Notes under the pieces: model-generated
The model's database searches: none
What the model was told of the DNA's origin: nothing
Seen by the model: only the letters and a program-made list of their open reading frames with translations
Shown: positions 5,907 to 60,720 of the stretch, piece by piece
How positions within the stretch are numbered: position 1 is the stretch's first letter
How the letters are laid out: each line of letters opens with the position of its first letter
Translations under genes and position numbers: made by a program
Source: Bacteroidaceae bacterium
GTDB lineage: Bacteria > Bacteroidota > Bacteroidia > Bacteroidales > Bacteroidaceae
Length of the DNA stretch: 64,000 nt
Assembly (NCBI GenBank): GCA_024693505.1
Contig: JAILKU010000022.1
Coordinates: forward strand, 41,197-105,196
Reading direction: 5' to 3'

Positions 5907-7373
5907 ATGAGAAGTATTACGCAGGAAGAGATGAGGCAATTGCTGTCCGCGCCGCTGTTCCACCAGATAGGGCAGACAGCCGACGAGATGGGCGTGGAAT
6001 GCTATGTCGTGGGCGGCTATGTGCGCGACCTCTTCCTCGAGCGCCCCTCTAAGGACATTGACTGTGTCGTCGTGGGCTCCGGAATCCGCGTGGCTGAAGC
6101 CCTTAAGGAGCGGCTGGGCAGCAAGGCACATCTGAGCGTGTTCCGCAACTTCGGCACCGCACAGCTGAAGTTCGGAGGCACCGAGGTCGAATTCGTCGGC
6201 GCCCGCCGCGAGAGCTACAGCCACGACAGCCGCAAGCCTGTCGTGGAGGACGGCACACTGGAGGACGACCTCGACCGCCGCGACTTCACCATCAATGCAC
6301 TGGCCGTATGCCTCAATCAGTCGCGCTACGGCGAGCTCATCGACCGCTTCGACGGCCTTCTCGACCTCGAGGACGGCATCATCGCCACACCCCTCGACCC
6401 CGACATCACCTTCAGCGACGACCCCCTGCGCATGATGCGCTGCATACGCTTTGCCACCCAGCTCAGGTTCCAGATCGAGGACGAGACGCAGGAGGCACTG
6501 GGCAGGAATGCCGAGCGCATAAAGATCATCTCCCGCGAACGCATTGCCGACGAGCTCAACAAAATCATGCTCAGCCCCATCCCCAGCATAGGCTTCATCG
6601 AGATGCAGCGCTGCGGCCTGCTCAGCCTGATACTGCCCGAGATTGCCGCCCTCGAGGGCGTCGAGGTCCGCCAGGGACGCGCCCACAAGGACAACTTCTA
6701 CCATACGCTCGAGGTGCTCGATAACGTGGCCCGAGCCCAGGACGGCACCGATGCCGACGACGAGAAGAGGCTATGGCTGCGCTGGGCGGCACTGCTCCAC
6801 GACATCGGCAAGCCGCGCACCAAGCGATGGGAGAACGCAGGTGGCTGGACATTCCACAACCACAACTACGTGGGCCGCAAGATGGTGGCTCCGCTGTTCC
6901 GCCGCATGAAACTGCCGCTGGACGAGCGACTGGCATACGTCGAGAAGCTCGTCGACCTGCACATGCGACCCATCGTCATTGCCGATGATGTGGTCACCGA
7001 CTCCGCCGTCCGCCGCCTCCTCTTCGAGGCCGGGGAGGACATCGACGACCTGATGATGCTCTGCGAAGCCGACATAACCAGCAAGAACCAGCAGCGCAAA
7101 CGACAGTTCCTCGACAACTTCCGCATGGTGCGCGAGAAGCTGGCCGACCTGCAGGCGCGCGACAACTACCGCACCTGGACCAACCCCGTCACGGGCGAGG
7201 AGATCATGCAGACCCTCGGCCTACCACCCTGCCGCCAGATCGGCATACTGAAGCAGGCCGTCAAGGACGCCATCTGGGACAGCCTCATCCCCAACGATCA
7301 CGATGCCGCCTTCGAATATATGATGAAGAAAGCCGAAGAGATGGGACTCCTGAGTTCAATTCATAATTCATAA
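5907..7373 (+). CDS. cca: CCA tRNA nucleotidyltransferase with HD domain
   Basis: VVGGYVRDLFLERPSKDIDCVV, RRDFTINALAV, LLHDIGKP motifs. Confidence 0.9.
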   Translation: MRSITQEEMRQLLSAPLFHQIGQTADEMGVECYVVGGYVRDLFLERPSKDIDCVVVGSGIRVAEALKERLGSKAHLSVFRNFGTAQLKFGGTEVEFVGARRESYSHDSRKPVVEDGTLEDDLDRRDFTINALAVCLNQSRYGELIDRFDGLLDLEDGIIATPLDPDITFSDDPLRMMRCIRFATQLRFQIEDETQEALGRNAERIKIISRERIADELNKIMLSPIPSIGFIEMQRCGLLSLILPEIAALEGVEVRQGRAHKDNFYHTLEVLDNVARAQDGTDADDEKRLWLRWAALLHDIGKPRTKRWENAGGWTFHNHNYVGRKMVAPLFRRMKLPLDERLAYVEKLVDLHMRPIVIADDVVTDSAVRRLLFEAGEDIDDLMMLCEADITSKNQQRKRQFLDNFRMVREKLADLQARDNYRTWTNPVTGEEIMQTLGLPPCRQIGILKQAVKDAIWDSLIPNDHDAAFEYMMKKAEEMGLLSSIHNS

Positions 7374-7540
7374 TTCATAATTCAAAATGCATAATGCATA
7401 ATTCAAAATTTGTAAATTCAAAATTCAAAAATGGGCTGCGCCTTGAACCTCTTGAACGTATGGAGCAGCGAGCGCCATTGAAAGCTTGCTTTCATTTGGC
7501 CTATTATGAATTGTGAATTATGAATTATGAATTAAATAAA
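7360..7540. repeat. Second copy of the AATTCATAATT / GGAGCAGCGAG / CTTG-hairpin composite repeat
   Basis: TGAAAG-CTTG-CTTTCA (7479-7494) and CATTTGGCCTATTATGAATTGTGAATTATGAA, near identical to 5247-5278. Confidence 0.8.
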
Positions 7541-8270: not shown

Positions 8271-8340
8271 GTGCCATATCGTGCCTTATCGTGCCTTATC
8301 GCTCCATATCGTTCCATATCGCGCCGTATCGCTCCTCGCG
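8271..8340. repeat. Decamer tandem array 1 (GTGCCWTATC-type, 7 units)
   Basis: gtgccatatc gtgccttatc gtgccttatc gctccatatc gttccatatc gcgccgtatc gctcctcgcg, exact 10-bp period. Confidence 0.93.
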
Positions 8341-8354
8341 CAAAAAAACTGTTG

Positions 8355-8362
8355 TATCTTTG
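8355..8362 (+). promoter_or_regulatory. Bacteroidales -7 box TATCTTTG after decamer array 1
   Basis: CGCGCAAAA starts 8337, TATCTTTGCACC starts 8355 (18-bp offset); no clear -33 TTTG. Confidence 0.55.
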
Positions 8363-8380
8363 CACCGCGAATGAAGCAAT

Positions 8381-8470
8381 AACGTGCAATACCCTGCAAT
8401 ACCCTGCAGTACCCTGCAATATCGTGCAATATCGTGCAATACCCTGCAATACCCTGCAATACCCTGCATC
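8381..8470. repeat. Decamer tandem array 2 (ACCCTGCAAT / ATCGTGCAAT, 9 units)
   Basis: aacgtgcaat accctgcaat accctgcagt accctgcaat atcgtgcaat atcgtgcaat accctgcaat accctgcaat accctgcatc. Confidence 0.94.
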
Positions 8471-8487
8471 GCGCAAAATAAATGTTG

Positions 8488-8495
8488 TACCTTTG
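8488..8495 (+). promoter_or_regulatory. Bacteroidales -7 box TACCTTTG after decamer array 2
   Basis: CGCGCAAAA starts 8470, TACCTTTGCACC starts 8488 (same 18-bp offset as module 1). Confidence 0.6.
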
Positions 8496-8570
8496 CACCA
8501 GAAAAACGTGGACGGCGGCTCGACTTAGTCCGGACAACAACAGAGCTTCCCCACATACCCAACAAAGGTC

Positions 8571-8600
8571 GGTTACCATATAACCAGTGTTCTTTGACTT
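8571..8600 (+). other. Small hairpin GGTTA-CCATA-TAACC followed by boxA-like TGTTCTTTGACTT
   Basis: TGTTCTTTGA at 8588-8597 resembles boxA/rRNA-leader antitermination sequences; no CDS follows on this strand until 9663. Confidence 0.35.
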
Positions 8601-8636
8601 AATGTTACAAACAATACCTTTCAGCCGAAGGCGGCA

Positions 8637-8678
8637 GTAAATTTACCAGACCCGGGTGTAAATTTTACTAGACCCGCC
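8637..8678. repeat. Two-copy ~21-bp repeat GTAAATTTWACYAGACCCG
   Basis: gtaaatttaccagacccg ... gtaaattttactagacccgcc. Confidence 0.75.
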
Positions 8679-8720
8679 TCGCGTAAGAAAAGACCCTTCC
8701 CCAAGAAGACCCTCCCCCAG

Positions 8721-8746
8721 CCCCTCCCTTGTAGGGCGGGGAGGGG
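8721..8746. repeat. GC-rich palindromic repeat CCCCTCCCTTGTAGGGCGGGGAGGGG
   Basis: Same CTCCCTTGTAGGG family as at the xseA/xseB junction. Confidence 0.7.
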
Positions 8747-8815
8747 AATGCTGAGGAAGCTGGAGACGATAGGAGTAGGAATGGGCTGGCGCCGTTGCCA
8801 CTCTCTAACAAAATC

Positions 8816-8846
8816 TTTTGCATTTTTGCATTTTTGCATTTTTGCA
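8816..8846. repeat. Tandem octamer TTTTTGCA array (right arm, inverted)
   Basis: ttttgcatttttgcatttttgcatttttgca, reverse complement of 8233-8260. Confidence 0.8.
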
Positions 8847-32190: not shown

Positions 32191-32270
32191 TTTCCAGGTC
32201 TCCTAGGATTTCCTAGGTCTTCCTAGGACTTACTAGGATTCCTAGGGCTTCCTAGTCCTTCCTAGTTTAT
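32191..32270. repeat. Decamer tandem repeat TCCTAGGNYT (7 CTAG-containing units)
   Basis: tcctaggatt tcctaggtct tcctaggact tactaggatt cctagggctt cctagtcctt cctagtttat. Confidence 0.93.
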
Positions 32271-59675: not shown

Positions 59676-60623
59676 ATGCCGAACGTAATAATGGTTAAGA
59701 CTATAGAGGATTTTACCAATATATGGAATCTTCCTCTGTATCACCCTTTGATAGGCGTTTATGATATGAGAAATGCCCAAAGCAGGGTGCCTCATAACCA
59801 TATGTATAGTTTTAACATGCTTCTGCTGAGAAGCTCCTCCGGACATCCCTTCCTATACGGAGATGAGTCTTACAGCTATCGTAACGGTTCGGTCATAGCA
59901 ATCTGTCCCTATCAGCTGGCTGGCCCGCTTAGGGGGTACACCGATGAGTATAAGCCTTCGGGGCGGGTACTGATCTGGAGCAATGATATGTTTCATGGCA
60001 CCAGGGTAAGCCAAATGTATTCTGACTATCATTTCTTTTCTTATAGAAGCAACACGAGCCTGGACGTGAATGATGCAGAACGCTCCATGATATTGACGAA
60101 CATGGATCGTCTTGATGCAATGCTGAAGGAACACGGTCCAGACGTAAATATCATTGAGTCCGCCCAGATACTGTCGGAGATATTGGACGTATGTATGAAG
60201 ACGTTCAAACGTCAGATAGACACTTTCTGCAGGGAACCCAGCGGATTGCTTTCCATGACAGAGTACTTTCTGTTGAAATATTTCAAGGGTGGACTGGCTG
60301 CAAAGCTGGGGCTCCTTCGTGTAAGCCATCTGGCACGTGCTTGTGGACTGGACGAATCTTATTATGGCACTCGGTTTCATCAACTTACGGGCGTCTATGC
60401 GAAAGAGTATATCCAGTTCTGGATGATGAATGCAGCTAAGATTCGGTTGGCTAGTGGATGGGCCGACCTTGAGGCAATTGCCAAAGCATTGGGATTTACT
60501 CATCCGAATCATTTCTCGACCTTCTTTAAGTCCATGACGGGAATGACGCCCTCAGAGTATCGAATGAATCGGTTCCGCAAACTTCGACTCCATCGTACTG
60601 AGGCGGGTCTTGAACTGTACTGA
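59676..60623 (+). CDS. AraC family transcriptional regulator
   Basis: C-terminal HTH: LARACGLDESYYGTRFHQLTGVYAKEYIQ...IAKALGFTHPNHFSTFFKSMTGMTPSEYR; ATG 59691 is an alternative start. Confidence 0.88.
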   Translation: MPNVIMVKTIEDFTNIWNLPLYHPLIGVYDMRNAQSRVPHNHMYSFNMLLLRSSSGHPFLYGDESYSYRNGSVIAICPYQLAGPLRGYTDEYKPSGRVLIWSNDMFHGTRVSQMYSDYHFFSYRSNTSLDVNDAERSMILTNMDRLDAMLKEHGPDVNIIESAQILSEILDVCMKTFKRQIDTFCREPSGLLSMTEYFLLKYFKGGLAAKLGLLRVSHLARACGLDESYYGTRFHQLTGVYAKEYIQFWMMNAAKIRLASGWADLEAIAKALGFTHPNHFSTFFKSMTGMTPSEYRMNRFRKLRLHRTEAGLELY

Positions 60624-60660
60624 GGCGGGTCTTGAACTGTACTTAGGCGGGTCTTGAACT
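60595..60660. repeat. 22-bp tandem repeat GTACTGAGGCGGGTCTTGAACT x3
   Basis: Two identical units and one with a single substitution; a decayed fourth unit follows. Confidence 0.94.
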
Positions 60661-60720
60661 ATACTGATCCCGGGTTGGCGTTTTATCAGGTCCTGGCTCT
60701 GTTGAGATTGAATGAGCGGA

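Follow-up and report, generated by a model that had tools for sequence, protein, structure and literature searches.

Ten-base-pair arrays phased to the -7 box, and a missing -33 element, at Bacteroidaceae promoters and in a dispersed non-coding element

The window, a stretch of 64,000 nt from a Bacteroidaceae contig, holds between a HAD hydrolase gene (+ strand) and an OMP beta-barrel gene (- strand) the non-coding element whose parts are collected in Table 1. As had been foreseen from the sequence of this window, no CDS lies directly downstream of the element; a gene of the HU-HIG family, which figures prominently below, does not adjoin it either. Its most conspicuous parts are two tandem arrays of period 10, which TRF places at 8271-8331 (6.1 copies) and at 8376-8468 (9.3 copies, 90% matches). 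TRF and direct reading together put both arrays, to the base, where the original prediction had them. Read in the register of the promoter box that follows, they comprise the seven and nine units that had been counted, the first unit being degenerate in each. Elsewhere in the window, inverted 7-bp arrays, AATTCAT and ATGAATT (7358-7430 and 7503-7534), lie on either side of a small piece of non-coding DNA that precedes the HAD gene.

Each array leads into CGCGCAAAA and a TAYCTTTGCACC box, which begins exactly 18 bp after the start of CGCGCAAAA in both modules (8337 to 8355 and 8470 to 8488), a spacing that had been read correctly. Each array had also been read as ending in CGCGCAAAA. The motif does stand after each of them, but not as an in-phase repeat: the final ATCGCGC lies 7 bp, not 10, past the last unit. 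The 20-bp cores of the two modules differ at few positions and other copies of the element have one module or two, which bears out the proposal that the modules are diverged duplicates. The -7 element TAnnTTTG is present in both (TATCTTTG at 8355, TACCTTTG at 8488). The TTTG or TTG of a -33 element, to be looked for about 19-21 bp upstream, is found at neither box, again as first noticed. What precedes both boxes is an array of units of the degenerate form NNTAWNTNRC, in register and ending 20 bp before the box, except that the ACCC-type units of array 2 do not respect the W position.

Table 1. Features of the element copy in the window (positions refer to the 64,000-nt stretch)
Feature	Position	Strand	Remarks
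Left edge of the copy, 8-bp tandem array ATGCAAAA	8230..8256	+	
Array 1	8271..8336	+	Seven 10-bp units, type NNTATCGYGC (CATATCGTGC etc.)
CGCGCAAAA of module 1	8337..8345	+	GCGCMAAA motif, about -17 from the box
-7 box 1, TATCTTTGCACC	8355..8366	+	Without -33 TTG
Array 2	8376..8469	+	Nine 10-bp units, AATACCCTGC and AATATCGTGC, in the register of array 1
CGCGCAAAA of module 2	8470..8478	+	
-7 box 2, TACCTTTGCACC	8488..8499	+	
Conserved core of the predicted leader RNA	8504..8612	+	Block AAACGTGGACGGCGGCTCGACTTAGTCCGGACAACA nearly invariant
BoxA-like GTTCTTTGAC	8589..8598	+	As in rrn leaders of the genus
Dispersed module TAAATTTWMCHAGACCCG, two copies	8638..8678	+	
GC-rich palindrome CCCCAGCCCCTCCC...GGGGAGGGGAATGCTGAGG	8715..8756	undefined	
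Right edge of the copy, inverted 8-bp array TTTTGCAT	8816..8846	-	

Box 2 is predicted to start a non-coding RNA at about 8497-8503, of which some 54 nt are almost invariant across 14 copies of the element. At 8589 this predicted leader bears GTTCTTTGACTTAATG; rrn leaders of the genus have GTTCTTTGACATA and close variants of it at a comparable place, and we infer that the signal is of the boxA type, which serves rRNA-like antitermination. GYTCTTTGAC follows none of 219 ordinary boxes within 150 nt. No 16S gene lies downstream of the window element, and its copies are linked to neither 16S nor tRNA genes in the species' own assembly, from which the rrn operon is missing. RNAalifold gave a fold without any compensatory change, and we therefore make no structural claim for the RNA. 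Rfam has no family for the core of the element, in the window or in its copies. A boxA-like signal is also present in two further array-linked predicted leaders of other species. One such leader, which is conserved, lies upstream of sppA (signal peptide peptidase SppA) in G103, G118, G135 and G167, at loci (L323, L324, L345 and L346) that are likewise unmatched in Rfam. In G134 (L348, L363) an array-linked predicted RNA has a boxA-like signal followed by short repeats, AATCAGAGT / TATTCTGAGT.

The two window modules are part of a dispersed family of non-coding elements; this family, the boxA-like leader and the link to HU-HIG and smalltalk genes described below all go beyond what had been read from the single window. 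A pattern search and a 233-bp probe located many copies in the species' own genome (G000), 14 of which have the core (the conserved leader); the core is also present once in a sister species (G119). The own genome has 14 distinct array-and-box modules, at 10 loci. From left to right, a typical copy has a ATGCAAAA or TGCAATAAC array, one or two modules of 10-bp array, core and box, the leader, the TAAATTTTACTAGACCCG module once or twice, a palindrome rich in GC and a TTTTGCAT array. The TAAATTTWMCHAGACCCG module, of which each element has one or two, recurs as partial copies at many places in the genome, and up to ~1 kb of non-coding DNA upstream is common to six copies. Some copies have a second flavour of array, TTATCGTTAC/GTAAAGTGAC, and the modules are interchangeable. 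Most of the copies whose flanks can be read follow one gene and face the next in convergent orientation. Within 533 kb of own-genome sequence all the strong arrays before boxes (10-bp-lag identity of at least 0.77) belong to the element family, and a single weaker one (L219, identity 0.71) lies outside it. The G119 core, which lacks the TTTTACTAGACCCG module, occupies a site apparently orthologous to own locus C174, and like array modules occur at other places in G119. At three leader copies (L076, L079 and L080) the 10-bp array is replaced by unrelated, inverted TCATGACAC / GTGTCATGA repeats upstream, which suggests that the control regions are swappable.

Though inverted ATGCAAAA arrays flank the element, an insertion sequence or transposon was rejected as its nature: the copies examined are non-coding and lack a transposase. 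For an empty-site comparison at the window locus, the loci of relatives that were compared showed no synteny. The element found no match in the plasmids and phages searched, viral contigs gave seven 15-mer matches, as may be expected by chance, and the exact long pattern found none in named genomes. (The genus appears to be represented by metagenome assemblies, which often break at these repeats.) The ATGCAAAA / TTTTGCAT arrays also bound other non-coding stretches of the own genome, such as C126:39638-40120; G119 has them too, but none came up in 1.2 Mb from other relatives. In the window itself, three 22-bp repeats, GTACTGAGGCGGGTCTTGAACT, at 60595-60667, at the end of an AraC-like ORF, have on the opposite strand AGACCCGCCT in common with the TAAATTTTACTAGACCCG module.

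The combination of array and box, which it had been proposed to seek in relatives, was found again in other species and genera, with differing units. A pattern of core GCGCMAAA plus box, run on 139 genomes of the genus, gave few matches with real 10-bp arrays outside the own species, made of other units (GCTCTAAGTC, TCTATCTTGC). A probe made from one of these gave more, and array promoters with different units are present in G119, G134, G118, G060, G103, G135, G167, G053 and G105. When 399 genomes of the family were searched with a register pattern that uses no gene information, arrays came to light in genera g42, g43 and g70 and in G136. Five of the approximately eight clear arrays obtained in this way stand directly before PF18291 HU-HIG genes, and three of those five loci also have a smalltalk gene above cut-off. 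The other matches look like chance (a reversed control pattern gave three matches in all). On viral contigs the pattern matched once, at L487, where it overlaps an ORF of a phage-like contig and likewise looks fortuitous. Since arrays recur in other species and genera with different units, the suspicion that they are a strain-specific product of slippage fails. Such arrays were not found described in the openly licensed literature, and array promoters are a shared, apparently undescribed promoter class of gut Bacteroidales, found mainly ahead of genes for HU-like DNA-binding proteins. One further 10-bp array in the window, TCCTAGGACT at 32201-32265, lies near the start of an ORF, has no -7 box and is probably unrelated.

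What the diverse units have in common is the degenerate form NNTAWNTNRC, phase-locked to the -7 box. With that box as the sole anchor, 33 loci have T at unit position 2, A at position 3 and C at position 9. Their common register carries 5.52 bits against 0.87 ± 0.16 (maximum 1.84) for random rotation, a comparison in which the loci are not all independent. With a single representative of each unit type and with the finds of the register pattern excluded, the figure is 4.51 bits against 1.77 ± 0.38 (maximum 3.78 of 5000). The AT fraction at successive unit positions (0.79, 0.67, 0.97, 0.77, 0.77, 0.33, 0.59, 0.33, 0.49, 0.13) describes an AT-rich half-turn followed by a GC-rich half-turn, a composition expected of DNA with easy bending in a single plane. 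A protein that bends DNA, such as HU, would suit this pattern, which would also account for units that vary in their letters and not in their phase. Seven divergent pairs of -7 boxes straddle an array, and they are 117, 127 or 137 bp apart, that is, in steps of one unit.

The sigma-ABfr promoters of Bacteroidetes have a -33 TTTG and a -7 TAnnTTTG element (PMC7366714). In the ordinary boxes of relatives, TTG has a sharp peak at -23/-22, counted from the TA of the -7 element, which is the position of the canonical -33 element. Between -27 and -19, TTG is found at 75 of 222 ordinary boxes and at none of 25 array promoters, among them both window modules (p = 1e-4). The absence of -33 TTG from these promoters and the single register across loci largely uphold the original prediction, the arrays behaving as helically phased stand-ins for the -33 element. 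Array promoters share the -7 box, TAYCTTTGCA, with sigma-ABfr promoters and differ from them in having, in place of the -33 element, a phased 10-bp array, usually with [GC]CGCMAAA. This last motif occurs near -17 in 15 of the 25 array promoters (some of which were found through the pattern GCGCMAAA) against 3/222 ordinary boxes; GTYG stands just before the box in 14/25 against 10/222.

Several array promoters stand ahead of a short ORF with a match to smalltalk (NF033879) and of an HU-like gene with a match to HU-HIG (PF18291). Such clusters sometimes include an amidase; at own locus C19 (L086) the order is array, box, HU-HIG, a GIRNNNPLNIR protein and smalltalk. When PF18291 was searched in 11 genomes and the regions upstream of 67 matches were scanned, a dominant 10-bp period preceded 19 of 145 boxes upstream of HU-HIG genes. 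Among 775 control boxes (TAnnTTTG, in 1.2 Mb of unselected DNA of relatives) it preceded none, and other periods were dominant at nine. Thirteen of the 67 loci have an array, a rate that may be inflated by the choice of the 11 genomes, partly made for known arrays; the contrast with other periods is not so affected, and the family-wide search with the register pattern is free of that bias. At the other 54 loci no array was detectable, and in the own genome C19 alone has one. Array promoters without an HU-HIG gene include those of the sppA-leader RNAs and L348, L363, L473 and L475. Because of the linkage, HU-HIG is the leading candidate for the ligand of the array. HU proteins usually show little sequence preference in binding, which counts against HU-HIG as its reader. 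HU-HIG identity and unit similarity are correlated (Mantel r 0.66-0.71, confounded by common descent), and one shared unit precedes HU-HIG paralogues that are merely ~17-20% identical. Since divergent paralogues share a unit, a common factor acting in trans fits at least as well as recognition in cis. On balance we would give HU-HIG as the array ligand somewhat less than an even chance.

The reading that we prefer, with a probability of about 0.55, is that these are a class of Bacteroidaceae promoters in which a phased 10-bp array replaces the -33 element, making the promoter factor-dependent, and whose orphan copies drive a non-coding RNA. Ahead of a -7 box of the form TAYCTTTGCA, and in most cases with [GC]CGCMAAA near -17, the array would hold its units in register, all facing the same side of the helix. 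A protein that bends or wraps DNA would fill it cooperatively and would recruit, or gate, RNA polymerase, and promoter output would be set by that protein and by the number of units. The home of the class would be the promoters of HU-HIG/smalltalk (sometimes amidase) clusters; under autoregulation, the most likely ligand would be the cluster's own HU-HIG protein. In the window species an array promoter may have been copied into the dispersed non-coding element, where it would drive an RNA, 110 nt long or longer, that bears a boxA like that of rRNA leaders, and the orphan copies would be controlled in trans. Transcription of these promoters, occupancy of their arrays and the direction of control, activation or repression, are here read from sequence. 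A bolder form, which we think unlikely, would make HU-HIG proteins array-reading regulators and not general nucleoid proteins: they would wrap or polymerise along the bendable array and so replace the -33 contact for the housekeeping holoenzyme, as a chromatin-like switch tuned by unit number, with the boxA-RNA elements as a genome-wide regulon.

The array might instead be read by a family-wide dedicated activator, or by a holoenzyme with a special sigma factor, for which HU-HIG genes would simply be the most frequent targets. Register and the NNTAWNTNRC unit are indeed common to loci with very different HU-HIG proteins and to targets of other kinds, and the additional core motifs, [GC]CGCMAAA and GTYG, with the enrichments already given, point the same way. 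Against this, no gene for such a factor came to light, and it would leave the strong linkage to HU-HIG clusters to be explained in some other way. We think it somewhat unlikely. The arrays could also be operators of the repressor or partition type, silencing the promoter in the manner of ParR, omega or MetJ, or mainly sites of chromosome organisation. In favour of this, tandem operators right upstream of the binder's gene typically serve autorepression, arrays are often straddled by divergent box pairs, and convergent genes enclose most element copies. Against it stands the consistent absence of the -33 element, the trace that activation and not repression would leave; nor did a ParA-type partner gene come to notice. 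We judge this alternative unlikely.

Replication slippage in repeat-rich intergenic DNA, with the resulting arrays kept at promoters by chance and spread with a mobile non-coding repeat, is a very improbable origin. Unit number does range from 5 to 13 among copies, presumably through slippage or recombination, identity is higher within arrays (0.78) than between them (0.63), and short tandem arrays with repeats of 7-9 bp occur elsewhere in the genome. But enrichment at promoters is confined to period 10, unrelated units in different genera have the same phase to the box, and the 10-bp step is kept even between units of differing sequence. For the window element there is also the proposal, in our estimation quite improbable, that promoters and leaders of rRNA operons were copied to many places in the genome and that it is mainly a functionless relic of them. 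Its boxA-like GTTCTTTGACTTAAT matches rrn leaders of the genus and the start region of box 1, TTTGCACCGCGAATGA, resembles the TTTGCATCCGCAAATGA of rrn promoters; yet no further likeness between rrn leaders and the element was seen, and its leader block is near-invariant in 14 copies whose flanks have diverged. The rrn promoters of relatives that could be read have no array; for the own rrn promoter, whose operon is missing from the assembly, the features to compare would be an array and the AAACGTGGACGG block.

The preferred reading, of an array in place of a -33 element, has partial counterparts in known systems. Tandem operators of ribbon-helix-helix proteins (MetJ, omega, ParR/parC) consist of short direct repeats, with a spacing close to helical, next to a promoter and in many cases ahead of the binder's gene. 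Array promoters resemble them in having short direct repeats by a promoter, often before the gene of the putative binder, and differ in that the period is exactly 10 bp, a core element is apparently replaced and the adjoining family is HU-HIG. Array promoters stand directly upstream of many clusters of HU-HIG (PF18291) and smalltalk (NF033879, PF20096), in four genera, whereas no gene of either kind lies in cis to the window copies, which precede a predicted non-coding RNA instead. With boxA-bearing rRNA leaders the window element shares GTTCTTTGAC within ~110 nt of the predicted start; in contrast to them it is dispersed in 14 copies, has a different leader sequence and has no rRNA genes downstream.

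Bacteroidales are dominant gut bacteria, and their promoters are known essentially by a single -7/-33 consensus. HU-HIG/smalltalk clusters, which are expanded in this lineage and functionally unexplained, gain a first testable regulatory role and a candidate binding site. The arrays may constitute a natural system in which promoter strength is tunable in steps of one helical turn, and the unannotated, boxA-bearing predicted RNAs are a set to look for. BTncRNA_FopS and other paralogous sRNAs of Bacteroidetes (RF04319) are also multi-copy families of non-coding RNA in a Bacteroidales genome, from which the present element differs in being unmatched in Rfam. An FopS sRNA (RF04319) is encoded at L082, 2978-3053 (- strand); a truncated element copy lies ~0.5 kb away.
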